Below, in pieces: positions 1,835 to 33,894 of a stretch of DNA of 40,620 nt. The notes under the pieces were generated by a model that worked only from the letters and a program-made list of their open reading frames with translations, was not told the DNA's origin and did not search any database. The DNA comes from Alphaproteobacteria bacterium (GTDB lineage Bacteria > Pseudomonadota > Alphaproteobacteria > Paracaedibacterales > CAITNM01), in contig CANJXJ010000011.1 of NCBI GenBank assembly GCA_947478955.1, positions 1 through 40,620 of the forward strand, given 5' to 3'. Position 1 is the stretch's first letter, and the number at the start of each line of letters is the position of its first letter. Both the position numbers and the translations under genes were made by a program.

Positions 1835-2491
1835 TCAACCCAACAATTTAGCCCAGCTTAGTTTTCCTTTTTCCTCAATCATAAAATCCCGAAGTACCGC
1901 AGCTTCATTTAACACAATAATTCTATCGGCAACAGCGCCAACAAAATCAAGGTCATGACTCGCTATTAGCATAGTAACACCTTGGGCTTTTAAGTTTAAA
2001 AAGAGTTCAGCAACACTTTTGCTGCTAGGTCCATCAAGACCTGAAGTGGGTTCATCACACAGTAATAAATCTGGCTCAAGTACGAGTGCCCTAGCTATAG
2101 CTGCCCGCTGCCGTTGACCACCAGAAAGTTGATGGGGCATTTTATTGTAGGCAGTTTTTAAACCAAGCTGCTTAAGGGTGCTTTTGGCTTTTTCTTGTGC
2201 ATCATTTGCAGGTTGTTTTTTTGTAACCCTTAGGGCATATGTCACGTTATCTAAAACGCTTAGATGAGGAAACAACTGAAAGTCTTGAAAGACAAAGCCT
2301 GTAGTACCTTTATGGGTAATCGTACCGCTATCTAGTTTTTCAAGCTTTTGAATACACCGCAGCAGCGTTGATTTTCCGCTACCCGATGGACCTGCTAAGG
2401 CAACAATCTGCCCAGGATTCAAACAGAAGCTAACCTGCTTAAGAATGTTGTGATTGCTATACGCCTTGGTTGCATTTGTGACCTTAAGCAT
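1835..2491 (-). CDS. Amino-acid ABC transporter ATP-binding protein
   Basis: This 218-residue ATPase belongs to the polar-amino-acid (GlnQ/ArtP/HisP) group. Walker A is GPSGSGKST (34-42), the Q-loop is FVFQDFQLF (about 66-74), the signature is LSGGQ (122-126), Walker B ends CDE (145-147), and the switch His is in SHD (179). It is somewhat short (family about 240) but every motif is present. It would power import through the fused receptor-permease encoded just upstream, whose 3' end it overlaps by 8 bases, so the two are co-translated. Divergence from argR and the ARG-box-like sites in the shared promoter suggest arginine or a related basic amino acid as substrate; that is inference. Confidence 0.92.
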   Translation of the reverse strand: MLKVTNATKAYSNHNILKQVSFCLNPGQIVALAGPSGSGKSTLLRCIQKLEKLDSGTITHKGTTGFVFQDFQLFPHLSVLDNVTYALRVTKKQPANDAQEKAKSTLKQLGLKTAYNKMPHQLSGGQRQRAAIARALVLEPDLLLCDEPTSGLDGPSSKSVAELFLNLKAQGVTMLIASHDLDFVGAVADRIIVLNEAAVLRDFMIEEKGKLSWAKLLG

Positions 2492-3842
2492 GGTACCACC
2501 TTTTTTCTAAAGTTTTTCCAAAAAATTCGATTGTCTTAACCAGCAAATAATACACGCACCCCGCCAAACACATAGGCAAAAAGTAGTCATATGTTTCAGC
2601 AGCAAGGGCTTGAGCACGGCGCAAAATATCCATTTCTCCTAAAACAGAAATCAGGGCAGTTTCTTTGGTAAGAGTCACTGCTTCATTAATCAGAGAAGGA
2701 AATACATTACGAAAAACTTGGGGCAAAATAATATCTTTCCAGGAATGCCACTTTGAAACTCCCAACGCTTGGCACGCTTCAAATTGCCCTTTAGGCAAGC
2801 TTTGCAGACCAGAACGTAATATTTCAGTAATATAAGCCGCAGAATTGATACCCAACGTAATAACGCCAGCTGCTAGAACGCTTAATTTAATCCCAATCAA
2901 AGCAGGAAGAGAAAAGTAAACAAACCCAAGCTGCAGTAAAACAGGTGTTCCTCTGATAATCGAAATAATGGAAGCAATCGCCCAAGTTCCATGGTGTAGA
3001 TGCCGAGACACCGCAAAGAAAATGCCAAGAAATCCGCCGAATAGTATTGAGAGAAAGCTATAGGTTAAGGTCGTAGGTAATCCCTTTGCAATAAAAATAA
3101 AATCCTTAAGCAAGGTATGGCTTTTTGATTGCGAATCCCCTTCTATCCATTTTTTGTGTAAGTTATCTAACGTTCCATTTTGTTTTAGCTTTGTGATTGC
3201 CGCATTAATTTTAGTTACAAGTGGTGAACCTTTTCTTGTCATTACAGAGCATCCTTCCTTGGAACGCCCTATTACTGAAAACGCTAAGTTTTTTGAATTT
3301 TTAATAAATTCCCTAGCTTGAATAGCATCAATTAAAACACCATCTACATGGCCAGCCTTTAAAGCTTCAGCCATTTGGGTAGCAACATCCATAGGCACAA
3401 TTTTAGTTTTTGTTGTATGTTCAGTAAGCCACGTATGCATGGCTGATCCCATTTGGCATGCAATAGTTTTACCATTAAGATTTTGTTCACTAATGGGCTG
3501 ATTTTCGTGGTGCAAAATTGCAAGTTCATCAAAATGATAAGGAATAGAAAAATCAAAACTTTTCTTTCTCTCTTGTGTAGAAGTCACAGAAGAAATGATG
3601 ACATCAACATCATTTTGTTTAAGTGCACTCAACAAACTAGCAAATGACATATCTTGAATCTTAATGCTTACGCCAATTTCTTCACCGATTGCTTTTGCCA
3701 GATCCACATCAAAACCAACAATGTCTTCACCCTGTTTGAATTCAAAAGGTGGATAGTCGGCAGAAAGGCCAACAGTGATTTCATTAGAGGCTGCGCCTAG
3801 GTGATGCATAAGGAAAAACACCCACAACAATTTTATCCACAT
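2484..3842 (-). CDS. Fused periplasmic amino-acid-binding protein and ABC permease
   Basis: One polypeptide joins two transporter parts. After a signal segment (WIKLLWVFFLMHHLG), residues about 25-245 are an SBP_bac_3 receptor (ADYPPFEF, GFDVDLAKAIGEEIG, FSIPYHFDELAILH). Residues about 255-450 are a HisM/GlnP-type permease with several membrane helices and the EAA loop GQFEACQALGVSKWHSWKDI that docks the ATPase. The frame can begin at a TTG 12 bases further upstream (3854), but ATG 3842 is preferred because GGA lies about 8 bases before it and the signal peptide starts there. A tethered receptor is a known but less common arrangement. Transcription is likely from the TTGACA promoter under ArgR control. 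An arginine substrate is inferred from context. Confidence 0.92.
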   Translation of the reverse strand: MWIKLLWVFFLMHHLGAASNEITVGLSADYPPFEFKQGEDIVGFDVDLAKAIGEEIGVSIKIQDMSFASLLSALKQNDVDVIISSVTSTQERKKSFDFSIPYHFDELAILHHENQPISEQNLNGKTIACQMGSAMHTWLTEHTTKTKIVPMDVATQMAEALKAGHVDGVLIDAIQAREFIKNSKNLAFSVIGRSKEGCSVMTRKGSPLVTKINAAITKLKQNGTLDNLHKKWIEGDSQSKSHTLLKDFIFIAKGLPTTLTYSFLSILFGGFLGIFFAVSRHLHHGTWAIASIISIIRGTPVLLQLGFVYFSLPALIGIKLSVLAAGVITLGINSAAYITEILRSGLQSLPKGQFEACQALGVSKWHSWKDIILPQVFRNVFPSLINEAVTLTKETALISVLGEMDILRRAQALAAETYDYFLPMCLAGCVYYLLVKTIEFFGKTLEKRWYHA

Positions 3843-3867
3843 AGCACTATCCAATTTTATTCATTAT

Positions 3868-7743: not shown

Positions 7744-9906
7744 TTATTTTTCCTTTAGATGAATAATGCCATTCCAATTTTTCTCTGGAGGATTTTTGAT
7801 AAATTCTTCCACCCTGGCAGAATAAATCTCAATAAGCTTGTCTTCAATACTCATCTTTAAAGCGGCTTCACGTAAATTAGAAAATAATTTCTTTGCTTTT
7901 TTCCAATCCCTTTGTACATACGCCTCATAGGCTTCATTGTATTGGGCTAAATAGTCCCTATATTTCTCAGAAATAGGTCTTAGGTACGCATGGTCATCAA
8001 TACCGATAAGCTGATATATTTTTATACCTTCAGCCTTACCTTTAAATGCAACAATATCTACCGGCCTTCTTATAAAATTAGAACTTAATTTTTGGTGGAC
8101 AGGTTCAGAAATTAAAATGTTCGTTCCATATTGCTTATTAGCCCCCTCTAAGCGTGCAGCAAGGTTAACGTTGTCACCAATTGCTGTATAGTTCATCCGC
8201 TCTGATGAGCCAATATTTCCAACAATAGCCCTGCCTTCATGAATTCCAATACGTGTTCTGAATTCACATTGATCACTATTAATCCAATATTTGTTTAAGC
8301 CTATAAGCTTTTCCATACAAATCAATGCAGAAATACATGCGTTCTCCGTTTGATCACTATCTAAATCTGGAGCACCCCAAAAGGACATGATAGCATCACC
8401 GATATATTTATCTATTGTGCCTTTATTTTTAAGAATAACGCTTGAAAGCTCTTCAAGATATTCCGACAACTGCGTCACAAGTTTTGTTGGTTCTCGCGCT
8501 TCTGATAAGGTCGTGAAGTTGGCTATATCCGTAAAAAGCACCGTAATATTTACTTCTTTTCCACCTATTTCAACATCTTCTCCCGAGCGAATAAATTTTT
8601 GAACCAGTTCTTTTGGAATAAATCTTGCAAAATTTTTGACGTTTGTTTTCATATTTTGAATTTCGACTGCAAGATTTGAAATTTCTTTTGTGGAACTTTC
8701 TATGTTAACCGAATCATCAAGATCAAAAGCATGGATTTTGTGAGCTTCAAGTGCCAAGTTTACTATGGGCTGAGAATATTTATTGATCTGAAAATACAAC
8801 CAGAATAGAGCAATCAGTAAAATTACCAGCGAGAATACAAGGCTTCCCTTCTGCATAAGTATCTCTGCTATTTTGGTAAAGTCACTCAATGCACATATCG
8901 AAACCACTTTCCAATCCAGTTTAGACACCGAAGGAAAAGTAGTATTTTCTATCATATAATCAGTGTCATTATAAGAAAAAATAATGCCCTTATCTTGCCG
9001 AGATGCACTGGATTGTTTTGAGGATTTATCAAACCCCACCTTAAAAAGCTTCACATTAGGATTATTCAGATCAAGAATGCCAACGTGCTTGAATTTTTGA
9101 GGCAAGCTAGAATAGGCTACTAAGTTCTGATGATTATCTACAAGAAACAATGAACTGTTTTCGTTGATACGATTAATGTCTAAATAAAGTGCAAGATCAT
9201 TAAACGTAACTTCTGCGTAAATTTTCTCACTACGGCCAGAAGTACTATCTTGAGGACACACAAGAGTTATGACGGGGTTGTTTGTTATTTTGGAATAAAT
9301 TAATGACTTTTTATCTTTACTAGCATTATTCGTAATTAATAAGCTTATTTTTGACAAAACTTCCTTTAATACATTATCATCTACATTGAGTTCTTTAATA
9401 AGCGTGTATTTATCTGAATAATAATACATTTTTCTTGAGATAACATTTTGATCTTGATCTATTTGAACAAACCCTAATATGAAAGCCGCATTGCTATCTA
9501 TAGGCACCCCTAAATATAAATCACTCCCCATCTTGTAATGGCTAATTTGTGATACAAAAACGTAGTTGTTTTTATCTACAGGAATAACAAAGTTAGACAC
9601 ACGCTTGAACTGCCCCATTAAATTCGTAATCTTACTAAGTACCGAAGGATCATGAAGGTTCTTTTCATCACCAATGGCAATGGATAAAATCCGAGCTTCC
9701 TCATCGGCTTCCTCCATGTAATCCATCGCGCGCAAAACCACCGCTTGATTTTGCCGTTTTATCAAATTAAATGCAGTATCGATAACTATATTTTTCACAG
9801 AAAAATAATTATAGCTTGCGATCGCAACTCCAAAAAAACAAATAATTATAAATGTATTAAAAAGGATATTTGCTTTAAGGGAGGTTTGGCCTTTAAATTT
9901 CATCAT
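7744..9906 (-). CDS. Membrane-bound class III adenylate cyclase with periplasmic sensor
   Basis: In this 720-residue protein TM1 (about 13-36) and TM2 (about 354-372) flank a periplasmic region of roughly 315 residues that looks like a Cache-type sensor. A HAMP-like linker (about 373-425) leads to the cyclase domain (about 452-620). The metal aspartates are D460 (FTDIANF) and D504 (YIGDAIM). Purine-selecting K500 and D578 (AIGDNVNLAARLEG) favour ATP over GTP, and N581 and R585 are the transition-state pair, so it should make cAMP as a homodimer. A helical tail (about 640-720) follows. It is the last of five tightly packed genes; its ATG overlaps the preceding stop (ATGA) after AAGGATAAGGA. 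No cAMP receptor is seen in the window. Confidence 0.93.
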   Translation of the reverse strand: MMKFKGQTSLKANILFNTFIIICFFGVAIASYNYFSVKNIVIDTAFNLIKRQNQAVVLRAMDYMEEADEEARILSIAIGDEKNLHDPSVLSKITNLMGQFKRVSNFVIPVDKNNYVFVSQISHYKMGSDLYLGVPIDSNAAFILGFVQIDQDQNVISRKMYYYSDKYTLIKELNVDDNVLKEVLSKISLLITNNASKDKKSLIYSKITNNPVITLVCPQDSTSGRSEKIYAEVTFNDLALYLDINRINENSSLFLVDNHQNLVAYSSLPQKFKHVGILDLNNPNVKLFKVGFDKSSKQSSASRQDKGIIFSYNDTDYMIENTTFPSVSKLDWKVVSICALSDFTKIAEILMQKGSLVFSLVILLIALFWLYFQINKYSQPIVNLALEAHKIHAFDLDDSVNIESSTKEISNLAVEIQNMKTNVKNFARFIPKELVQKFIRSGEDVEIGGKEVNITVLFTDIANFTTLSEAREPTKLVTQLSEYLEELSSVILKNKGTIDKYIGDAIMSFWGAPDLDSDQTENACISALICMEKLIGLNKYWINSDQCEFRTRIGIHEGRAIVGNIGSSERMNYTAIGDNVNLAARLEGANKQYGTNILISEPVHQKLSSNFIRRPVDIVAFKGKAEGIKIYQLIGIDDHAYLRPISEKYRDYLAQYNEAYEAYVQRDWKKAKKLFSNLREAALKMSIEDKLIEIYSARVEEFIKNPPEKNWNGIIHLKEK

Positions 9907-10715
9907 TCCTTATCCTTCTTATGAAAAGCATCAGATTTTGCCTGTATTAGAAGCTGATCAAGCTTATTAATGTATTGTCCAACTAGAGTAACTTTAGATG
10001 CCATGGCGCGCATTTGAGATTTAATAACAGGCTCATCAATTTTACCCAGGTCAATTTTTTTTCCAATATTATTTAAAATATACATAATAGAAATTTCAGT
10101 CATTTTTATCATTTTATTCAAACTTGCTGTGTTTTTTAAAACGGCTATAAAATTTATGCTTATCACAAGAACAAGAGCCAATAAGAGCCGTTGGTAAAGG
10201 CTCTTGATTTCAGAAATCTCCTTCATATGGATTTTATGAAGATCGTAAAAAATTAAAACTCCTCCTTTTTCCTGGTCTGCAACGTTCTTAATACTTAACC
10301 CTGAAAACCCCACGCCCTCATTAAGCGCGCCACTCCAGTAACCTGTTTTTGAGGCTCGTATCCTTTTTCTAACTTGCTCGTTCTCACTGTCAGAAAGTGC
10401 TTGATTTTCAATCGATGCAATCTGATAATTTTTTTCATTTTTCGTCTTAAAAACAATAATGTTCTGAATAGTAGAGTCAAATTTTTTTGTATTTCTAATA
10501 CTCTCAGGAATATTTTTTATATCATCCATTTCTATGCCTAATTTAATGGCGTTATCAATGGGTTGACCTATCCCTGCTGCGGCAACATTCAAACGATCAA
10601 TAACAAGGTTTGAACGTGTCATGTGGTATTTAAAATGCATTAAAACGGTAAGTAATATCATTGTACACGAAGCAACTATCAACAAAACTGAAGAAATTCG
10701 AAATGAAAAATTCAT
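9903..10715 (-). CDS. Two-TM membrane protein with periplasmic sensor-like domain
   Basis: The 270 residues start with a TM helix (about 7-26), followed by about 145 periplasmic residues containing FDSTIQNIIVFK and GYWSGALNEGVGFSGLSI, which resemble a Cache or sCache fold. A second TM (about 178-196) leads to a 70-residue helical cytoplasmic tail. There is no enzymatic or HTH output domain. It resembles the sensor half of its neighbours, so it may pair with the adenylate cyclase or the HAMP-MFS protein. It lies 4 bases after the MFS gene (AAAGAGG precedes its ATG) and overlaps the cyclase start by 4. No family could be named with certainty; function is inferred from location. Confidence 0.75.
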   Translation of the reverse strand: MNFSFRISSVLLIVASCTMILLTVLMHFKYHMTRSNLVIDRLNVAAAGIGQPIDNAIKLGIEMDDIKNIPESIRNTKKFDSTIQNIIVFKTKNEKNYQIASIENQALSDSENEQVRKRIRASKTGYWSGALNEGVGFSGLSIKNVADQEKGGVLIFYDLHKIHMKEISEIKSLYQRLLLALVLVISINFIAVLKNTASLNKMIKMTEISIMYILNNIGKKIDLGKIDEPVIKSQMRAMASKVTLVGQYINKLDQLLIQAKSDAFHKKDKE

Positions 10716-10719
10716 ATGA

Positions 10720-12819
10720 TCAACCTCTTTGGGGGAAAATTTTGTATTTATTTTTGTTTATAAAAATAAACAGTATATTTGTAAGAAATATAAAGGCAGC
10801 AAATGATAACAATGTTTTTTGATAACCAAGGTGTGAAATACAAACAGCAGAGATCAATGGAGAGATCAGCATGGAAACTCTTTCATATGTAAAATAAGCG
10901 CTAATGATTGTGTGGTAATTATCTGACTTATTTTCTGCAGCAAGGTTTCCAAGTACAGCCATCATAGATGAAACATGCAAAACAGTACCTATTGAATACA
11001 TTGTAAGCGCTATAACAACCCCTTGCGTTGTAGGCATAAGCCATTGCACTAACAAAGAAAAACAAATTAAACCATTACAAATAATGCTAGACATTACTGG
11101 CGTTAAAAAGAGAGAGACAAATTTATGCGCATACGGCGATATGCAAAAAACAAAAATACCATAAATCATCATCACTCGCCCAACTATAGACATGGAGTTT
11201 CCTAGGTGAACCAAATACAAAGGATTAAGAACTGTCATCATCGCTCCGTATAGAAACCTTGCCGGAAAAGCAAGACAGATAATAATACTTGCTAGCCTAG
11301 GAACTTTATTAACTTTAAAAGGATTAATTAAAGGATCTTCAAGGCCTTTTTGATCAAATCCTTCGTAATCAACTATGTATTTTTTTGAGTAAATAATAGC
11401 GCTAGCTGTAATAAAAGCACATAAAGTAAATGTATATCCATATCCTATATTATCTACGAGCAACCCCCCCACTGGCATACCTGTTAAATAAGCTGATCCG
11501 AGCGCCACTAGGTAAATAGAGTAGTGTTTAACACGATTGGCGGGTGAACTATACATTCCGACATAATTTTGAAAAGATATATAAACTATTCCAAACCCCA
11601 CTGCATTCATGGCTCTACATGCAAGAAATGCCTCAATACTTTCAGGAAACACGGTAACTATAATAAATCCTGAACAATACAGCGAAAGTCCAATTTGAAA
11701 AGTTTTTCGAAAGTTATATTTTGCGGCAATGCTGAACCCAAAAGGAAAAGATATTATCGAGAGTAAGAAAAATAAAATAACGGGAAGTGTGGCGTATAAT
11801 TGCTTGGAAATGAAAAAGCCCTCGGTATAAAATTGCCCTGCGTACGACGGCGAAATGGTTGTTACAATTCCCTCACATATTAAAAATAGAAAGACAACCA
11901 GCCGTAAATTTTCTATCGCTGGGGCGAGAGGAGCAACGGCCAGGTTGCCATCCTTTGGCGTTAAAATATTTGATTTCATTTCAGAAATATTATCTCTTAT
12001 TAAGTCATATAAATAATTATTTTTACTGATCAATTTGAAATCTGAAGTTATTTTAGAAATACGGGAATAATAATAACTAATTAAATTATTTAATTTTTCT
12101 AAACATTTATAAATACCTGTCTGTGCTCTAATAGACGATATAAGAGAAAGATCACCTTTAGCCATTCGACTAATTCCTGACAAAAAGTCATTTAAGGGCG
12201 TTACCACATAATTCACAAACGTAAAACGTATAAACTCAAAACCAATGACCAGCGAAACAAACAAGATAATAGCTATATCAAAGAAAATATCGCTAATTTT
12301 ATTTTGAACCGCCTTAACAGAAACACCCAAGTGTAAATATCCATATGTCTTCTTTTGAGCATCAATAATAATTGGGATAGGAATGTTAACGTATGAAAAT
12401 ATGTTAAAGGGACGCATTTCATCTTTCAATGCATCTGTTGTCAATGCAAATTGTTTCAAGCTTCCACTTAAAGAACTAGGAGCATTTTCTGTTTGAGCAA
12501 CTACATTACCTTTTAAGTCTGTTACAAATATATATTGCAATTCTTCAATTGCTGTTAATTTCTTATCAAGATATTCCTCAAGCCCCTTAATTTCTGTAAA
12601 GGGAATACCAACCGTAATTGCGCGCTCAATTAACAGCTCAATAGAAGAGCCAATAGTGTGAGTTTTTTCTGCAATTTCATTAAACAAACCTTCTTTTTGA
12701 GCGCCGATATGCAAAAAGTATAAAACGCTACCTATAGCAAAATTCGTTATAACGAAGTATGCAATGATTTTAAAAATCATCGTTTTGAATGATTTTACTT
12801 GGTCTATATAATCATCCAT
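10720..12819 (-). CDS. Periplasmic sensor-HAMP domain fused to a major facilitator transporter
   Basis: About 699 residues from the chosen start combine signalling and transport parts. TM1 (about 14-38) and TM2 (about 178-200) enclose a periplasmic sensor (ELQYIFVTDLKGNVVAQTEN, a Cache-like strand pair). A HAMP-like segment follows (TPLNDFLSGISRMAKGDLSL), then about 75 helical residues, then roughly 12 membrane helices of MFS type including LACRAMNAVGFGIVYISFQN and GSAYLTGMPVGGLLVDNIGY. The frame extends 69 bases upstream, inside the preceding gene; ATG 12819 is preferred because it overlaps that gene's stop and has AAAGG before it. Sensor-HAMP regions normally end in kinases, cyclases or chemoreceptor domains, so this is an odd fusion. 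Ligand and cargo are unknown. Confidence 0.85.
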   Translation of the reverse strand: MDDYIDQVKSFKTMIFKIIAYFVITNFAIGSVLYFLHIGAQKEGLFNEIAEKTHTIGSSIELLIERAITVGIPFTEIKGLEEYLDKKLTAIEELQYIFVTDLKGNVVAQTENAPSSLSGSLKQFALTTDALKDEMRPFNIFSYVNIPIPIIIDAQKKTYGYLHLGVSVKAVQNKISDIFFDIAIILFVSLVIGFEFIRFTFVNYVVTPLNDFLSGISRMAKGDLSLISSIRAQTGIYKCLEKLNNLISYYYSRISKITSDFKLISKNNYLYDLIRDNISEMKSNILTPKDGNLAVAPLAPAIENLRLVVFLFLICEGIVTTISPSYAGQFYTEGFFISKQLYATLPVILFFLLSIISFPFGFSIAAKYNFRKTFQIGLSLYCSGFIIVTVFPESIEAFLACRAMNAVGFGIVYISFQNYVGMYSSPANRVKHYSIYLVALGSAYLTGMPVGGLLVDNIGYGYTFTLCAFITASAIIYSKKYIVDYEGFDQKGLEDPLINPFKVNKVPRLASIIICLAFPARFLYGAMMTVLNPLYLVHLGNSMSIVGRVMMIYGIFVFCISPYAHKFVSLFLTPVMSSIICNGLICFSLLVQWLMPTTQGVVIALTMYSIGTVLHVSSMMAVLGNLAAENKSDNYHTIISAYFTYERVSMLISPLISAVCISHLGYQKTLLSFAAFIFLTNILFIFINKNKYKIFPQRG

Positions 12820-13858
12820 TTGATGCGACCTTTCTAAATATCTCAGCTGTTTCCAACAAGGCAATTTTAGGAGTAGTTCCCAGAGCATTCATCGTGTCTT
12901 CTCTTATTGCAAGAGATGTTTTTGAACCAATTTGATAAGGCATTGTTTTCACATCTTTTCCCTTGAAAAGAATGTCTTCTGCTTGCATACCTGCCATTAA
13001 CCCCATAACAGCAAAACTGGTAAAGTAAGCAAAAAGGCATGCGCCTTCCACTCTCACCATGTCTTCCAATGTTGTATAGATTGGCGCAGCATGAATAGAT
13101 TTATTCTGAATAAATTCATCGATAACAAGACGAATACTCCCCTGCGTCACTCCATCGCTAGGCAAATAAATCATATCGGGTTTTTCAGCTAATACTTTTA
13201 AAACCGCCTTTTTTATACCACCCTCCACAATTTTATTGTCTTTCACTTCAAATTGAACAAGGGCAGTCTCTACTTTTTCAGTGGCTGCTATTTTCTTCAA
13301 TTCTAGACCTCCTGCAACAGAGTTAGGTTCAGGGCTAGATAAAACCACTATTTTTTTTATATTGTCACTAAAGCTTTGCATGATTTTTAGGCTTGTTATA
13401 TTCGGAATATGGTGACCAACGCCTGTCACATTTCGGCCTGTGGGCACTCCTATATCCTTTATAATTTTTGTTGCTACAGGCTCTGAATGGGCAACAGCAA
13501 CAATAGGAATATCTGTTATATGTTTTTTAGGGTCAATTGCATCCCAAGGGCCAGCCACCCCAAGAACAGCGCCTGTACTGTAAACGTATATAAGATCTGG
13601 CCTTATTTGTTTTGCTTCAGCAATAAATCCTTCTAATTTTTGTTTGTTTTGTTCTGCAAAACGTTCAATGAATTCAATATTTAAATTTTTCTCCTTAAGA
13701 TACTTAATAAATGTCTCACCGAGGGCTGTTCTTCCAACCTTCAACCAGTGAATCATGAAGATTTTTTTTGGTTTTTCATTTGCAATAATATCTGGCATCG
13801 TTGCCATCAAAAACATGGCCAAGATGATTGTTCTAGTAATGTTTACAAATATAGACAT
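12812..13858 (-). CDS. ABC-type substrate-binding protein of the TrpX/PF04392 type
   Basis: The mature protein (about 320 residues) follows a signal peptide ending near PDIIANE. The segments DLIYVYSTGAVLGVAG, IPIVAVAHSEPVATKII and RNVTGVGHHIPNITSLKIM match the ABC_sub_bind (PF04392) periplasmic proteins, and PDMIYLPSDGVTQGSI is the matching second lobe. Such proteins normally bind tryptophan, tyrosine or related small molecules for an ABC importer, but no ABC permease or ATPase gene is adjacent. It sits between an aldolase and membrane sensors, so it may present ligand to a sensor instead. ATG 13858 overlaps the aldolase stop (TGATG); a GTG at 13861 is an alternative. It overlaps the next gene by 8 bases. 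Confidence 0.88.
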   Translation of the reverse strand: MSIFVNITRTIILAMFLMATMPDIIANEKPKKIFMIHWLKVGRTALGETFIKYLKEKNLNIEFIERFAEQNKQKLEGFIAEAKQIRPDLIYVYSTGAVLGVAGPWDAIDPKKHITDIPIVAVAHSEPVATKIIKDIGVPTGRNVTGVGHHIPNITSLKIMQSFSDNIKKIVVLSSPEPNSVAGGLELKKIAATEKVETALVQFEVKDNKIVEGGIKKAVLKVLAEKPDMIYLPSDGVTQGSIRLVIDEFIQNKSIHAAPIYTTLEDMVRVEGACLFAYFTSFAVMGLMAGMQAEDILFKGKDVKTMPYQIGSKTSLAIREDTMNALGTTPKIALLETAEIFRKVASNG

Positions 13859-14811
13859 CACTTCTCTTCCGTTTTTAATGTTTTTACAAATTCTTCAAAG
13901 TTAATATTTTGCTTGCTTAATAAGTTCTGAAGCAACATAGGATGCACCCCTGCATTTGTCCCATAGTGATAAAGAGGGCTATACCCCCATCCATACTGCT
14001 TTTTTAAATTAAAGAAATGTGTCTCTATTAAGTTCATAAGAGGCAACAAATCAAATTCATCCTTGTTATTGAGCAAATCTAAAAGCAAACTTTCAAGTTT
14101 GGAATTCCCGGCCCCGCGCCCCATACCCATGATTGTTGCGTCAATATATGTAGCACCCGTTTCAATAGCTGCTACAACATTTGCGGCAGCAAGCCCTCGG
14201 TTATCATGAGCATGAAATCCATACTCTTTTGAAAAATTATCCCGAAGACATTTAAAAATTTTTCTTAATTGATAGGGACTTAAAACTCCAAATGTATCCG
14301 CGAGAATAACCATATCAGCTTTAGTGTTCTTAAGTTTTTGGAATGCCACAAGAATATCATGGTCACTATATGCTGAAATATGGGTAATGTTGTTTGCAAC
14401 ACTATATCCAAGATCTTTAAAAACCTCCGTCACATACAAGATATTTTCTATATCTTTAGCAGATGATGCAACACGAACAAGCTGAATACGGCTTTTATCT
14501 GCAGCTGGTAAAAGCTTTTTAAAACATGATTTATCCAGGTGATCAAAGTCCTTTAGCATAACCATAACGGCCAAGTTAATATTTTGAGGTATTATTAACT
14601 GTTCAATATATTCATCTGTCGTATAAGCAAGGGGGCCACTTTTAGAAGCATTATCAAAATTTCTGAATCCAATTTCTACATAAGGGATAGGCAAACGACT
14701 TAATACATCAAGCGTTTTTTCTACAAGCACCTTGTCAAAGGACCAGTTATTGTAATAACCTCCATCCCGAAACGTGCAGTCAATAAGCTTGCAAGTATTA
14801 TGTTCTTTCAT
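13858..14811 (-). CDS. HMGL-like (DmpG-type) aldolase domain protein
   Basis: This 317-residue TIM-barrel enzyme begins with the family's metal and catalytic motif DCTFRDGGYYNNW (about 11-23). Further on are ADTFGVLSPYQLRKIF and the metal-binding HAHDNRGLAAANVVAA, then GATYIDATIMGMGRGAGNS. These are hallmarks of the HMGL-like superfamily (4-hydroxy-2-oxovalerate aldolase, HMG-CoA lyase, isopropylmalate synthase). The lack of the communication domain makes it closest to stand-alone aldolase-domain proteins. The reaction should be carbon-carbon cleavage or condensation of a 2-oxo acid; the substrate is unknown. It is first in the five-gene minus-strand operon, with a candidate -10 element 42 bases upstream. 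Its link with sensors and a cyclase is unusual. Confidence 0.88.
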   Translation of the reverse strand: MKEHNTCKLIDCTFRDGGYYNNWSFDKVLVEKTLDVLSRLPIPYVEIGFRNFDNASKSGPLAYTTDEYIEQLIIPQNINLAVMVMLKDFDHLDKSCFKKLLPAADKSRIQLVRVASSAKDIENILYVTEVFKDLGYSVANNITHISAYSDHDILVAFQKLKNTKADMVILADTFGVLSPYQLRKIFKCLRDNFSKEYGFHAHDNRGLAAANVVAAIETGATYIDATIMGMGRGAGNSKLESLLLDLLNNKDEFDLLPLMNLIETHFFNLKKQYGWGYSPLYHYGTNAGVHPMLLQNLLSKQNINFEEFVKTLKTEEK

Positions 14812-16777: not shown

Positions 16778-17692
16778 ATGAAAAAATTATTCATTCTTTT
16801 TGCTATTTGTTACGGCTGCCTACAGCTCAGTTACACCCTTTTTGATATATCAACGCGTTCCATCGACAACATGGCAAATCCTGACCTTGACGCAAAACAC
16901 AAGCTGTTTAGCAAAGGAGTGTATTTAGTTTCCTATGCCGATGGTGACGAGGTCTTCTTTCAAAATCAAAATGCCTTGGCTCAATCAGCCCTAAACCGGG
17001 GTATTGATTTTATCCTAAATTATCGCCGTTCCCATATTGATGAAGAGTTTTACAAAAAACACCAGGCAATTTTAGATGAAAAATATGGCGCAGGGTATTG
17101 GCTGTGGAAACCTTATGTCATTTTGAAAACCTTGGAAAGCACCCCAGAAGGAAGCATCATTGTTTACATAGATTCAGGCGCTATTTTAACCGGGTCCTTA
17201 ATGCCCATTTTACAGCATCTAGAACATTATGATGGTGTTTTTTATCGGTATACCCGTGAAGTTTACGGCACTTTAAAAGCCAATGCAGATGCCCAGGTTG
17301 CTGAAGAACTAGGCGTTTCAACCCATCCTGAATTTGATAAAACCAGATCACTTTGGGCTGGATTTATGGTGCTTAGGAATTGCCAAGTGACCCGCGATTT
17401 TGTCAAAACGTGGCTTGAATTATGTACCAAGCCAAACCTTGTAAAAGGCTATGGAAAAAGTCGGCATCAACATGATCAAACCTTGTTGAGTATAACTTTA
17501 TTAAAAAATCCCAATCACATGAAATCATTGAACGAAGATGATTTCCGTTTCACTTTAAAATGGCACCATCGTCATAAATCAATGCAGCAATATAGTCTGT
17601 CTATTTACCAACATCCCAGCCTGATCTTTTTCTCTGACCCATGGGCTTTTGCCCCATTAAAGTGGCTTCGATATGTATTATTAAGGGGCTAA
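16778..17692 (+). CDS. Putative glycosyltransferase-like protein, copy 1 of a tandem pair
   Basis: The 304 residues have an N-terminal hydrophobic segment (KKLFILFAICYGCLQLSYTL) that is either a signal peptide or an anchor. The core then has GAGYWLWKPYVILKTL (104-119), a strand with a possible DxD-like site (IVYIDSGA, 128-135), SLWAGFMVLR (191-200) and RHQHDQTLLS (229-238). GYWxWKP plus a HDQxLLS-type motif is typical of poorly characterised GT-A-like glycosyltransferases from surface-polysaccharide loci. That assignment is by motif memory, and donor and acceptor are unknown. The next gene is a close duplicate beginning 2 bases after the stop. Codon use resembles the neighbours. Confidence 0.7.
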   Translation: MKKLFILFAICYGCLQLSYTLFDISTRSIDNMANPDLDAKHKLFSKGVYLVSYADGDEVFFQNQNALAQSALNRGIDFILNYRRSHIDEEFYKKHQAILDEKYGAGYWLWKPYVILKTLESTPEGSIIVYIDSGAILTGSLMPILQHLEHYDGVFYRYTREVYGTLKANADAQVAEELGVSTHPEFDKTRSLWAGFMVLRNCQVTRDFVKTWLELCTKPNLVKGYGKSRHQHDQTLLSITLLKNPNHMKSLNEDDFRFTLKWHHRHKSMQQYSLSIYQHPSLIFFSDPWAFAPLKWLRYVLLRG

Positions 17693-27755: not shown

Positions 27756-29669
27756 TTATCCCCAGTAGGATACAACTACTGAAGGTGAGGAATTGGTTAG
27801 TATTGCCGCGAGCGTAGCTAGGGTAAAGGATGGAGCCCCCACAGCTAAAGGCGTGCCAACACGCGGATCCCCTGAACCTGCCACTGGGTATGCGACAACA
27901 CCACCTGTAACACTAGCAGCTGTTGCCGCTGTTACAGCAGCAGCTGGTATAGAAATTGTTATAGTTCCTCTGCGTAAGATACCAGAAGTGGCACTAGTAA
28001 ATAAACCTGAAGGAAGCCCAGCTATACTAGCGGCATTAGAGCTAAGGGTAAACGAACCACTACCACCAAAAAGTCCAGCAAATAAAGAATTTAAATAGGT
28101 AACCGTTGTAGGTAAGGTTGTTGGAGCCAATAAAGGCGAAACAAGAGCTCCCCCACCAGGAGATAATTGCGCAATTATTTGAGTTTGTGCCGTTGTGAAA
28201 CTTGTAATTTGAGCTTGTGCTGCCGTCAAAGCAGCTTGGGCAGTAGTTAATGCAGCAGTAGCAGCAGTAGCGGCAACTGTAGCTGCAGTCGCTGTAGCTT
28301 GGGCGGTAGTCGCTGCAGTTTCGGCGGCAGTCGCTGTAGCTTGGGCGGTAGTCGCTGCAGTTTCGGCGGCAGTCGCCGCGGTTTGGGCAGCAGTCGCAGC
28401 AGCAGTAGCTGAAGCCGCTGTGGCGGTAGCAGCTGCCAAATTATTTTGTGCAGTAATAGCTATAGCAGTTTCGGCGGCAGTAGCAGCCTGAGCTGTATTA
28501 GTGGAAGCTTGTGCTGCAGCCGTTGCAGCTTGCGCTGCAGTTAATGCAGTTTGTGCCGCAGCTGCTGCATTGTTTGCTGCGGTTACAGCAGTTGCTAATG
28601 AGGTTATTGTAGATTGCGAAACGCTCAAATTTGTTTGCGTTGAAGTTAATAATCCTGATAAAGAAGCGACCTGAGTATTTAAGCCAGGAATTGTAGTTGC
28701 TGTTGCCAGGTTTAATTGGGCTAGTACAGCAGTTATTTGAGATCCCAATGTAGTTAATTGCGATGATAGATACGGCCCTGGGCTTGCTGGTGATGCTGCA
28801 TTTAATTGGGTTATTAAGGAAGCTATAGATGTTTGTACCGAAAGTGCTGAAGTTACTTGACTCGATAACGAAGTTAATTGGGATATCAGATCACCTGATG
28901 GCGTTGTTGTTGTTCCTAATGCAGTGTTGAATTGGGTTATTAAAGAAGCCACCTGCGCTTGGGCTCCGGTTAGTATCGTAGCTTCCGTAGCTATTCGCGT
29001 GGTCAGATCTCCTGCTGTTGAGGCTGTATGGTTTAATTGCGTTATTAAGGAAGCCACTGCGGTTTGTGCCGCAGTCAGTAAGGATGCTTCCGTGGCTATT
29101 CGCGTTATCAGATCTCCGTCTGTCGAAGCTGCAGAGTTTGATTGCGTTATTAAAGAAGCCACCGCGGTTTGTGCCGCAGTCAATAATGAAGCTTCTGTTG
29201 TTAACAGGGTTGCCAAGCTTCCAGTTGTGGAGGCTGTATGATTTGACTGGGTTATTAAGGAAGCCGCCTGAGCTTGTGCCGCAGTCAATAATGAGGCTTC
29301 TGTTGTTAACAGGGTTGCCAAGCTTCCAGCTGTCGAAGCTGCAGAGTTTGATTGGGTTATTAAGGAAGACACTGCGGTTTGTGCACCGGTTACCTGCGCT
29401 TGTGCGTCGTTTGCCTGAGCTTGTGCTGCCGTTAGCTGGGCTTGCAGCCCAGGGATTGTGGCCACCTGAGCCTGCAGGGGAGCAACCTGCGCCTGCAAGG
29501 CTTCTAGTTGCGCTAATGTGGTGGGATAATTTGTTATAGCTACCGCTGCAGTGTGAATTCCTTGAGGTGATAGGAGTAAAGGATTGATCACAGCCAAATC
29601 TTGACCAGAAACATGTACGCAAAAACAAGCAAACATTAAAAAAATCAAGCAAATAGATTTTGAACGCAT
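27756..29669 (-). CDS. Secreted Ala/Thr-rich repeat protein with 35-residue coiled-coil repeats
   Basis: After a clear signal peptide (SICLIFLMFACFCVHVSG), residues about 50-110 are an AQxQV coiled coil. Residues about 110-270 hold four full repeats of 35 residues (five heptads), each starting SLITQ and ending with TEASLLTAAQ-like text, plus two diverged copies. Residues about 365-480 are alanine-threonine tracts (ATAAETAATTAQATATAAET). A non-repetitive C-terminal part (about 500-637) ends VVSYWG. It looks like an elongated surface or periplasmic fibre. No autotransporter barrel or LPXTG-like anchor is evident. I recognise no family. It starts only 18 bases past a good -10, so its leader is very short. 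Confidence 0.75.
   Translation of the reverse strand: MRSKSICLIFLMFACFCVHVSGQDLAVINPLLLSPQGIHTAAVAITNYPTTLAQLEALQAQVAPLQAQVATIPGLQAQLTAAQAQANDAQAQVTGAQTAVSSLITQSNSAASTAGSLATLLTTEASLLTAAQAQAASLITQSNHTASTTGSLATLLTTEASLLTAAQTAVASLITQSNSAASTDGDLITRIATEASLLTAAQTAVASLITQLNHTASTAGDLTTRIATEATILTGAQAQVASLITQFNTALGTTTTPSGDLISQLTSLSSQVTSALSVQTSIASLITQLNAASPASPGPYLSSQLTTLGSQITAVLAQLNLATATTIPGLNTQVASLSGLLTSTQTNLSVSQSTITSLATAVTAANNAAAAAQTALTAAQAATAAAQASTNTAQAATAAETAIAITAQNNLAAATATAASATAAATAAQTAATAAETAATTAQATATAAETAATTAQATATAATVAATAATAALTTAQAALTAAQAQITSFTTAQTQIIAQLSPGGGALVSPLLAPTTLPTTVTYLNSLFAGLFGGSGSFTLSSNAASIAGLPSGLFTSATSGILRRGTITISIPAAAVTAATAASVTGGVVAYPVAGSGDPRVGTPLAVGAPSFTLATLAAILTNSSPSVVVSYWG
28918..29385. 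repeat. 105-bp tandem repeats inside the Ala/Thr-rich protein gene
   Basis: Four imperfect copies of about 105 bases encode the 35-residue unit; a phrase like TTGGGTTATTAAGGAAGC recurs at the matching point of each. They are in frame, so unit gain or loss keeps the reading frame. Confidence 0.7.
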
Positions 29670-30966: not shown

Positions 30967-33894
30967 TTATTCAGCGCCTCGACCGCCCACGCGCGGGCCA
31001 TTATGTTTTACAAAAAAGGCTAACATAGCATGTTGAAGTAAAAAGGTTCTGCCTCTTGCTCCGGTTCCACACCTACCGACATGCATTCTCATAAACTCTG
31101 CCGCATTTTCTTTTATAAGATCCAAAGTACTTTTCTCTCCCCCCGTTATAGCTCCACCTCTTTCCTCAATTACATAGTATTGATAAAGATTTCTTACCAT
31201 CATCATGGTATTAAATAGCCTTTGATTAGCAATTCTTATATCTTCTGAACCGCCAGAGCTTGCTTGAGTAACAGTGTAGTTAATCCCCCCACTCACCCCA
31301 TATTCACTAAACCAGTCTTTTAATTTTTGTTGATTCGTTGCATCTACTGCAACACTAATAGGAATATTAATCTCAGAAAATGCCTTTACTAAAACAGCCT
31401 GCATGTTATCCCGCCATTCTTCTAAAAAGGGCGGCTTATCATTAAACTGCCCAAAATCAAATGCAGAGACCGTTCCATCCATTTCAACTTCAGTCACTTT
31501 AAACATAGGAGTAATTTCTGGTTTTCTACAAGGCAAACTTGTCCCATAGGTCATAATTTCTTCTGCTGCAGTATAACCTGATGCTTCTCGGGCATAATAA
31601 TATCTAAAAGCCCTAATTAATTTTAGGCGATTTTCTATCACCTCAAGTAATTCAGGTGCTGCCAGTCGAGCAACAACAGGTACCACTGGAACGGGAACTG
31701 GAGCAGCATAACGAGGAACTAAAGGAGGTCGTGGCCTGTCATCCACAACTGGAGCAACATAACGAGGAACTAAAGGAGGTCGTGGTATGGCACCCGCTTG
31801 GAGGCGAAAACGTTCTGCTTCTACGCGCTCTCGTTCTGCGGCTAAGCGTTCTTGTGCTGCTCGCGCAATTTCTGCTTGCCGTAGGCGTTCCGCCTCTCGT
31901 ACTTGTTGTTCTTCAAGCTCTCGTGCTTGTGCAGCTAAGAGTTCTTCTGCTGCTCGCTCAATTTCCGCTAATCGCTGACGTTCGCGTTCTGCTGCTGCTT
32001 CTTCTTCTGCTGCCATCAACTCTCTCAAATTCTGTTTGATCGTCATAGAATTTAGATCTCGACCTTTCAAAAACTCCTCTACCGGTACATAATTTTGACC
32101 TAATTCATACTGGGTATATAAATTTAATAATTCTGGTTTGTATTCATATAAGAAATTGCTTTGGTAAACTGGTTTAGCAGTCAAAAACGAACACAGAACC
32201 CTCACATCTGCAGAAAATGAGAATTTATATTGCCTAGCCATTTCTTCCACATCTCCTTGCAGCTGAACAACATCTCTAAGCGCTTGATGCTGCGCATCAC
32301 GAAGTGGACCAGGCGCTGAATGCCACGAAACCAGCTCTCCAATGTCATCGGCAACGCTTGCCTCTACCGTTGATTCTGGCGTTGTTTTTAAATATGCAAT
32401 TAATGCATCTAAACGTTCAAAATATGGGGCATACAAAGCAATGCAGCGTGCTTGATAATTTTTAAAGAATGGTAAAACTTTATTTTGGTCAAGCCGCGAT
32501 TTTCTCAGGGCACTTACTACCTTACCCCGATTTTCTTCAGAAATAGATTCAAAATGCTTCAAGGTATTACCACTTACTGAATTTGCAGATCCAGGATTTG
32601 GATAAAGTAGGGCATTTTTAACTGCTCCTATTCGATCATTAAGCTCATGTTGAATCCGCTTTAAACTATCTTGAATAGCAAAAACTACTGGCTTTGCCAG
32701 CAGGTGCTCGTCTTTTTCATAATCGAAATATCCTGCTGTACGCACTGCCACAGGATCAGGAACTTCATCTTCTGCAAGTAATGCGCGAAGCCGTTCCTCC
32801 AACGCTTCAAGATCAAATAGTCCTATTTTCCTTCGTTGGGTAACAACTATATCTCTTACAAATAATTTCAAACATTTAATTATTTGCCTTTGCCTGTCTG
32901 GATTGATTTGAATAGCTTCGATGCTTACCTTCAAAAACTTTCCTAATAAGGGTAGTGATATTTCCCCACGAACATTTACTTCAACGCATTTAAATCTCTC
33001 GTCTATGATGACATCTTCAATTACAGGTAAACTAAACTGTATTGAGTAAGCTCTAATAGCTTCTATAAAATGGGCTAAAATCTTGCGTTGAAAACGATAT
33101 CTATCTGGCCCATCCTGAAGATTAGGAGCACAAGAGGTCACAAAAGCTCGGTATCCTGGAAGTAATTGATCTACATTGCCCTCATAAATTTCGCCTTGCA
33201 AAAGTTTTACAAAAACAGCTCTAATCGCGGGGCTATCATACTGAAGATAATTTCTATTAGAGTTTTTTACTTTATTTAACAGGGTAGGATATGCAGGATC
33301 GATATAGTTTCTTAGCCTTAGAAGAGCATTGTATTCTGCTGCTATACTTGCTTTTTCTGGATCGTTTTTAACTTCATTCAACCCAAATAAATCAACAGTG
33401 TATTGCCTCACTACAGCAGATGGATCAGTAACACCGTTATTTACCTCAGCAGTAAACCCTCTTAAATGTTGCTGTTCATAAACTTTTGTGGGATTCGCAC
33501 AACTAGTGACATCAAATTGACTTTCCGGCCTTAGATTACGCCCTAAGTTATGCGCCATTCCTTTAAAAATATCAGCTTCTGAAGGAGTCATCGGAACACT
33601 AACAACACCTTGATCAAAACCAATCCCCAAGCCAACTGCTATCCCTAAACTTCCAAAAAAAGCGATACGATCGGTTTGCGGACATATAGCGCCTGTATTT
33701 TCTCCACGCAGTTCCTCTTGGCAGAGTTGAAATATTCCAACGGCATCCCATTGAGAGCCGCCCTTTGCTGCTTTTATTAATTCTGCGTTCATTACGCGAA
33801 AATTCTTAACACCCCGATGGTCTAATGGAACCATTTCAGTTGCAGCATATAAAGAAAAAATTGTAAAAATTGCTATATATAAAGATTTAATCAT
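30967..33894 (-). CDS. Large exported protein of unknown function with coiled-coil and Pro-rich linker
   Basis: The 975 residues start with a signal peptide (IKSLYIAIFTIFSLYAA). Residues about 20-615 are a long, mainly helical region without a family I recognise. At about 620-690 lies a charged coiled coil of Glu/Arg/Ala (AERERQRLAEIERAAEELL), then a proline linker with a doubled phrase (RPPLVPRYVAPVV, RPPLVPRYAAPVP) at about 695-735. A C-terminal domain (about 745-975) contains the segment SVAVDATNQQKLKDWFSEYG. It is probably periplasmic or surface-located. It has no cysteine-rich or catalytic signature that I can identify. The gene is monocistronic, divergent from the peptide-binding protein gene. 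Confidence 0.75.
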   Translation of the reverse strand: MIKSLYIAIFTIFSLYAATEMVPLDHRGVKNFRVMNAELIKAAKGGSQWDAVGIFQLCQEELRGENTGAICPQTDRIAFFGSLGIAVGLGIGFDQGVVSVPMTPSEADIFKGMAHNLGRNLRPESQFDVTSCANPTKVYEQQHLRGFTAEVNNGVTDPSAVVRQYTVDLFGLNEVKNDPEKASIAAEYNALLRLRNYIDPAYPTLLNKVKNSNRNYLQYDSPAIRAVFVKLLQGEIYEGNVDQLLPGYRAFVTSCAPNLQDGPDRYRFQRKILAHFIEAIRAYSIQFSLPVIEDVIIDERFKCVEVNVRGEISLPLLGKFLKVSIEAIQINPDRQRQIIKCLKLFVRDIVVTQRRKIGLFDLEALEERLRALLAEDEVPDPVAVRTAGYFDYEKDEHLLAKPVVFAIQDSLKRIQHELNDRIGAVKNALLYPNPGSANSVSGNTLKHFESISEENRGKVVSALRKSRLDQNKVLPFFKNYQARCIALYAPYFERLDALIAYLKTTPESTVEASVADDIGELVSWHSAPGPLRDAQHQALRDVVQLQGDVEEMARQYKFSFSADVRVLCSFLTAKPVYQSNFLYEYKPELLNLYTQYELGQNYVPVEEFLKGRDLNSMTIKQNLRELMAAEEEAAAERERQRLAEIERAAEELLAAQARELEEQQVREAERLRQAEIARAAQERLAAERERVEAERFRLQAGAIPRPPLVPRYVAPVVDDRPRPPLVPRYAAPVPVPVVPVVARLAAPELLEVIENRLKLIRAFRYYYAREASGYTAAEEIMTYGTSLPCRKPEITPMFKVTEVEMDGTVSAFDFGQFNDKPPFLEEWRDNMQAVLVKAFSEINIPISVAVDATNQQKLKDWFSEYGVSGGINYTVTQASSGGSEDIRIANQRLFNTMMMVRNLYQYYVIEERGGAITGGEKSTLDLIKENAAEFMRMHVGRCGTGARGRTFLLQHAMLAFFVKHNGPRVGGRGAE

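Follow-up and report, generated by a model that had tools for sequence, protein, structure and literature searches.

A small Cache sensor, a Cache-HAMP-like-MFS fusion and a PF04392 binding protein recur as a conserved gene trio with exchangeable enzyme and output partners in Pseudomonadota

What do an aldolase-like enzyme, a periplasmic binding protein, a sensor fused to a major facilitator domain, a second small sensor and a cyclase do together? The question is raised by a 40,620-nucleotide stretch of DNA (the window), which is one whole contig (CANJXJ010000011.1) of the 1.64-Mb genome of an entry labelled Alphaproteobacteria bacterium (GCA_947478955.1; G000), and which carries five such genes in the order ALD-SBP-MFS-SMALL-CYC. 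The features concerned, with transmembrane segments abbreviated TM, amino acids aa and open reading frame ORF, are as follows.

13858..14811, minus strand: ALD, HMGL-like (DRE-TIM) aldolase family enzyme, 317 aa (PF00682, 2.4e-26)
12812..13861, minus strand: SBP, PF04392 periplasmic binding protein, 349 aa (PF04392, 2.9e-19)
10720..12888 (longest ORF), minus strand: MFS, a TM-Cache-TM-HAMP-like linker-12TM major facilitator fusion (PF07690 MFS_1, 1.2e-24)
9903..10715, minus strand: SMALL, a TM-single Cache-TM-coiled coil sensor without an output domain, 270 aa (AlphaFold2 and Foldseek)
7744..9906, minus strand: CYC, a membrane class III cyclase (TM-periplasmic sensor-TM-HAMP-like-cyclase), 720 aa (PF00211, 4.4e-23)
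14858-14853, minus strand: possible operon -10 box TATAAT, ~41 nt upstream of the ALD start; a weak site read from the sequence

We propose, with a probability of roughly 0.55, that the locus encodes a modular transmembrane small-molecule signalling system, in which SBP, MFS and SMALL (the trio) act as the receptor and the effector is exchangeable, the output here being cyclic AMP (cAMP).

The same five genes occur in the same order in another alphaproteobacterial family (G001, L045). In a further family (G047) they are split between ALD-SBP-MFS (L062/L176) and MFS-SMALL-CYC (L087), both contigs ending in the MFS gene, where their ends share at least 60 bp of sequence. The window proteins are 38-54% identical to their counterparts in G001 and G047 (MFS, 46% and 48%), which implies that the shared order does not stem from recent common descent, but is old and probably selected. 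Within the genus itself the picture is different, and might suggest unrelated genes that merely happen to be co-transcribed, the genome being compact: no matches to MFS, SBP or the aldolase were found in ten genomes of the same genus, and the window operon adjoins clpP, after which all seven congeners read in this region have other genes (a conserved pair of ~620 and 1054 aa in six of them). Such patchy presence fits either acquisition or differential loss. The common order in G001 and G047, however, makes chance adjacency untenable; with that order seen in three families and the trio conserved across Pseudomonadota, we regard a fortuitous stack as very improbable for the operon as a whole and as refuted for the trio.

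A sequence-only reading of the locus had put forward the five genes as a module, to be checked by their co-occurrence in other genomes. The full set was found in three genomes only, whereas the trio, and the trio with a signal output, recur widely; that reading had therefore picked out the right conserved unit, but had drawn its boundary too wide, since the aldolase and the cyclase are exchangeable. The conserved core is the small Cache sensor, the Cache-HAMP-like-MFS fusion and the PF04392 binding protein. A search of the class with a SMALL alignment gave matches in 16 of 289 genomes, in every one of which SMALL has a Cache-MFS neighbour, joined by a PF04392 gene wherever the contig extends far enough. 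Searching with the MFS N-terminus added trio loci in Alphaproteobacteria and other Pseudomonadota, and a record labelled Methylibium also carries the trio. Altogether the three genes, overlapping or close, are present in ~31 genomes, mostly of Alphaproteobacteria, with a few loci cut by contig ends, and SBP adjoins the MFS gene at nearly every complete trio locus. A scan with the window MFS sequence alone reached no relative and one with an MFS alignment reached seven loci; because many phylum-level matches covered just the HAMP-like linker, the evidence for the trio was restricted to strong full-span matches of the N-terminal MFS profile. PF04392 proteins in G026 and G027, the neighbours of which include an ATP synthase subunit and PheS, were rejected as trio members, and SBP-like genes beside histidine kinases or larger HAMP sensors (L162, L171, L172) represent another arrangement and were not counted. 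The operon-bearing relatives are labelled Candidatus Paracaedibacteraceae, Holosporales or Alphaproteobacteria, from which the host is probably an alphaproteobacterium of the Holosporales type. Within the order, G004 and G005 carry MFS-SMALL-CYC-SBP, and G025 carries SMALL-MFS-SBP divergent from CYC, in each case without an aldolase.

The output enzyme beside the trio is exchangeable between two kinds, class III cyclases and SpoIIE-type phosphatases. A cyclase adjoins the trio in six genomes (G000, G001, G004, G005, G025 and G047), and in G300 and G203 one stands last in a second set of sensor genes; a SpoIIE-type phosphatase with a membrane sensor takes the output position in nine others (G091, G152, G162, G286, G305, G312, G315, G326 and G762). 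Several loci have such a second set, comprising a further SMALL-like gene and a Cache-HAMP-like protein, adjoining the output enzyme; the latter protein has many predicted TM segments and no Pfam match, and its membrane part resembles a degenerate MFS. Second sensor pairs are located at L088:5448-8095, L089:9314-11973, L100:11359-14164 and L167:11797-14078.

In CYC, the residues D460, K500, D504, T574, N581 and R585 are identical in 10 homologues; on the basis of family knowledge and alignment to CyaB and CyaC, we take D460/D504 to bind metal, K500/T574 to contact adenine and N581-R585 to stabilise the transition state. The ATP-type Lys/Thr pair of class IIIb is present, and the best solved relatives are CyaB (3r5g) and CyaC (1wc1). 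With all six catalytic residues kept, the earlier assignment as a class III cyclase is borne out, and CYC is predicted to be a class IIIb-type adenylate cyclase, with cAMP as its probable product. As to sensory regions, dCache_1 is matched in 7/10 and HAMP in 6/10 of the homologues. The window genome encodes proteins that bind cyclic nucleoside monophosphates (cNMPs); no cNMP-binding proteins were found in G025 and G047, and cAMP reception may thus differ between the bearers of the module. One protein of the window genome is a stand-alone cNMP-binding domain of 116 aa (L210:9563-9913; G000:C30), which has relatives in G004, G005 and G021 and is a possible minimal cAMP receptor.

With respect to the two sensors of the trio, the N-terminal region of MFS matches sCache_3_2 at 3e-5, under the Pfam cut-off, and an AlphaFold2 model (predicted local distance difference test score, pLDDT, 73.5; predicted template-modelling score, pTM, 0.70) predicts a TM helix, a Cache domain, a TM helix, a helical linker and 12 TM helices. 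The best Foldseek matches of this model are VMAT, VAChT, NorA, YajR, LmrP and SotB, and its 12-TM domain is nearest in fold to DHA1-type antiporter structures. Although MFS_1 is matched, so that the MFS half of the earlier description as a 'HAMP-MFS protein' stands, MFS has no direct Pfam HAMP match; HAMP is backed indirectly by the N-terminal profile, which matches many sensors across the membrane-proximal linker (profile positions ~147-270), and by two histidine kinases (L162, L170) that match over most of the MFS N-terminus and carry Pfam sCache_3_2 and HAMP. SMALL has no Pfam or NCBIfam match; its AlphaFold2 model (pLDDT 76) places a Cache fold between two TM helices, and the nearest solved folds include the sensor domains of Tlp1, WalK and DcuS. 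The Cache folds modelled in SMALL and in the MFS N-terminus agree with the prior view of the membrane proteins as sensors. In G410, SMALL and MFS are fused into one 855-aa, 14-TM protein (L173:7298-9865), which is a direct hint that both work together.

SBP has a hydrophobic N-terminus of the signal-peptide type. It matches the NCBIfam TrpX model with 85.9 bits, under the cut-off of 390, and its solved relatives are 3lft, 6hni and 3lkv. PF04392 proteins are receptors of ATP-binding cassette (ABC) uptake systems; no ABC permease or ATPase was found by Pfam among the nine window genes scanned around SBP, consistent with its being an orphan binding protein, as had been claimed. Other binding proteins were observed in these genomes. 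The window genome has a second PF04392 protein, 30% identical and without SMALL or MFS neighbours (L051:9575-10561; G000:C5), and elsewhere in the window (2484-3854) an SBP_bac_3 binding protein is fused with the ABC permease domain BPD_transp_1. At L098:3887-4867 and L173:5581-6306, a second binding protein (NMT1-like and SBP_bac_3, respectively) directly follows the PF04392 gene.

The position of the aldolase, like that of the cyclase, is variable. ALD matches PF00682 with 93 bits (cut-off 29), its nearest solved structure is 3dxi, a 'Putative aldolase' (5e-45), and it is 43-45% identical to the G047 and G001 copies; the DCTFRDGG motif is retained in the three orthologues, in which the HxH site reads HAH/HAH/HMH. 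A PHROGs search with ALD gave nothing. ALD is one of several exchangeable small-molecule enzymes of the module: the slot beside the trio is filled by an HMGL-like aldolase at 3 loci, a GNAT-like protein at 8, a PanB-like protein at 2, ATP-grasp pairs at 2 and a formyltransferase at 1. In G152, a further ORF between SBP and SpoIIE reads like a GNAT, as judged by eye from the sequence.

These findings bear on whether the locus is a nutrient uptake operon, in which SBP feeds an MFS importer, the aldolase degrades the nutrient and the cyclase reports its presence. The family role of PF04392 proteins in ABC uptake is in keeping with this proposal, as is the resemblance of ALD to catabolic 4-hydroxy-2-oxovalerate aldolases (TIGR03217, 1.2e-24), albeit with 87 bits, far under the curated cut-off of 286. 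DHA1 proton antiporters, however, are usually exporters, and several of the trio MFS proteins (L088, L090, L095 and L166) keep the motif C, GPxxGG, which is degenerate in the window protein (GMPVGG). In relatives, the GNAT, formyltransferase, PanB-like and ATP-grasp proteins that accompany the trio belong to the transferases and ligases, not to the enzymes of catabolism. To our knowledge, moreover, no MFS importer is known to be supplied by a binding protein, which we also count against the proposal. We therefore consider an uptake operon unlikely, and, because the MFS domain is DHA1/antiporter-like, import is not the favoured direction for MFS, which had been read from the sequence as a nutrient importer.

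An exporter-like MFS would suit a self-produced signal, for which the enzyme would make a diffusible compound, MFS would export it, and SBP and the Cache sensors would detect the returning compound and adjust the cAMP or SpoIIE output. Five unrelated small-molecule enzyme families filling the same slot beside the trio are consistent with such a scheme, as is the finding that the GNAT-like proteins of the 8 loci form a single family (mutual E-values down to 1e-36). The enzyme could, however, equally act on an imported ligand, and no enzyme was seen adjoining the trio in G004, G005, G021, G025 and G080, or at the type VI secretion-linked loci of G632, G466 and G410; on balance, we judge a self-produced signal to be quite improbable.

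The signalling system that we prefer would operate as follows. SBP, MFS and SMALL most likely form one receptor complex. SBP would capture a ligand in the periplasm and dock on MFS and SMALL at their Cache domains; the MFS domain would either move the ligand, or a derivative of it, across the inner membrane or serve as a recruited receptor. A conformational signal would then pass to the neighbouring effector, which has a Cache-type periplasmic domain of its own. In the window this effector would be the two-TM receptor adenylate cyclase, switched such that cAMP rises and acts on its cellular target; in relatives it would be the SpoIIE-type phosphatase. The aldolase would make or consume the ligand, with other small-molecule enzymes replacing it in other lineages. 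Gene order, domains, catalytic residues, the recurrence of the trio and the exchange of its partners are observed; the receptor complex, the passing on of a ligand, cAMP as the product and the processes under its control are inferred. Several points weigh against this proposal. Since only a degenerate motif C remains, the window MFS may not transport, and the HAMP and Cache assignments rest on sub-cut-off profiles and medium-confidence models. In G021, also of this order, the trio has no adjacent cyclase; conversely, a related cyclase is present in 39/42 genomes of the window's order, mostly without any trio, indicating that the cyclase also works without it.

Some loci point to a downstream process, i.e. 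the type VI secretion system (T6SS), the expression or activity of which might be set by ligand sensing via the trio and the cyclase or SpoIIE. In G632 and G466 the trio is directly upstream of VgrG, with TssF ~10 kb away; in G410 it is flanked on one side by ClpV-TssG-TssF, with an FHA T6SS protein two genes past SBP; and in the alphaproteobacterium G312, trio-PanB-SpoIIE lies just upstream of ClpV, VgrG, TssF and TssG. Among 31 near-complete genomes of the order, the receptor cyclase and TssF are absent from the same two (G007 and G020, of different families; Fisher p = 0.002), but significance is lost when all 42 genomes of the order are counted (p = 0.27), 38 of which have TssF. Furthermore, the T6SS of the window genome is on another contig (L214), and most trio loci are without T6SS genes in the stretches examined. 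The 23-31 kb between cyclase and TssF in congeners reflects synteny shared within one genus, plus one other case, and it was mostly on this ground that we rejected the idea of cyclase and T6SS being directly linked genetically in congeners. Nearly all Holosporineae are described as retaining the T6SS, for the function of which experimental data are lacking (PMC11909080). The results thus suggest the T6SS as one downstream target of the trio, as a lead rather than a result, and control of type VI secretion by the module is a tentative possibility. More doubtful than either this or a self-produced signal taken by itself is a combination of the two, in which a lineage-specific enzyme would make a signal, the MFS-receptor fusion would export it and monitor it with SBP and the Cache sensor, and cAMP or SpoIIE would switch the T6SS or other social or host-directed behaviour. 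At the T6SS-linked loci L160 (13350-13928) and L161 (13386-13973), a DUF6931 protein directly follows VgrG, downstream of the trio. In G011, TssF is split into two ORFs (L237:2577-4390; G011:C40:35577-37390), which may reflect a disrupted T6SS gene or a fault of assembly.

At the level of the window operon, ORF reading agrees with the prior description of five co-oriented genes that overlap or nearly abut. The overlap is 4 bp at both the ALD/SBP and SMALL/CYC junctions, and 4 bp separate MFS from SMALL. The longest MFS ORF overlaps SBP by 77 bp, a figure that falls to only 8 bp if translation starts at Met24 (12819); Met24 is invariant in the alignment of 6/6 homologues and is the likely start. 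The same description had one likely promoter. A TATAAT is indeed found upstream of ALD, but no good -35 box was seen for it, and a single promoter is not established: promoter-like sites in this AT-rich stretch are unspecific (45 found versus 29.9 expected in shuffles) and between ALD and rpoH, which lies upstream in the same orientation, no terminator-like site was detected. The G+C content is 34.6% for the operon and 39.3% for the window.

Elsewhere in the window, positions 16778-17692 encode a galactosyltransferase of the GMA12/MNN10 family (PF05637), a family better known from eukaryotes, and 37545-39920 encode NHL, cadherin-like and bacterial Ig repeats, likely in a large surface or secreted protein. 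Two large proteins of 637 and 975 aa (27756-29669 and 30967-33894) have no Pfam match.

No description of the trio was found in the open-access literature, most subscription journals being outside that search; nor was anything relevant found there for the combinations SpoIIE/MFS/PF04392, Cache-MFS-cyclase and orphan SBP with an MFS sensor, for Holosporales with adenylate cyclase, or for the T6SS with these families. The module is genuine and conserved, and as a unit it is apparently undescribed. If a transporter fold is part of a receptor complex in which both the ligand enzyme and the output can be exchanged, bacterial signalling would gain a new design. The module would also be a concrete candidate for what feeds into cAMP signalling, and perhaps into the T6SS, of protist-associated Alphaproteobacteria, in which the T6SS is regarded as the chief machinery of host interaction (PMC11909080). 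In each lineage, what the companion enzyme consumes or produces is a ligand that can be tested.

Comparison with known systems reveals partial likenesses for each component. SBP shares its family with the binding proteins of TrpXYZ and other PF04392 ABC importers, the TrpX model being matched far under its cut-off, but has no adjacent permease or ATPase and is partnered by the MFS fusion. CYC shares the catalytic domain and its six key residues with the class IIIb cyclases CyaC and CyaB; it differs in its receptor architecture, with two TM segments and a divergent periplasmic domain, and in being encoded in a transporter-sensor operon. The 12-TM domain of MFS has the fold of DHA1 antiporters (NorA, SotB, YajR, VMAT), and several homologues have motif C as well, whereas the window protein has an N-terminal TM-Cache-TM-HAMP-like extension and a degenerate motif C.

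Two systems are closer as wholes. In UhpABC of Escherichia coli, the MFS protein UhpC has a sensory role and acts upon a signalling enzyme that is a separate membrane protein (PMC7607045), and the window operon likewise pairs an MFS_1 protein with a separate signalling enzyme, the cyclase. UhpC, however, is a plain MFS protein for glucose-6-phosphate with a histidine kinase output, and the system has no SBP, Cache domain or cyclase; conversely, no histidine kinase or response regulator output is present in the window operon. In NspS-MbaA of Vibrio cholerae and Sinorhizobium meliloti, encoded by an overlapping gene pair, an ABC-type binding protein activates a membrane second-messenger enzyme without transport (PMC9993111); SBP, too, has no cognate ABC transporter and is encoded beside a membrane transducer. 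NspS, however, is a PotD homologue and the output is cyclic di-GMP (GGDEF-EAL) in one protein, as against PF04392 and PF00211 in the window, and NspS-MbaA lacks counterparts of the MFS fusion, the small sensor and the metabolic enzyme that the window operon encodes. Because the defining outputs (GGDEF/EAL and histidine kinase, respectively) are missing, the module is not filed under either system; by analogy, it may work like NspS-MbaA combined with UhpC.

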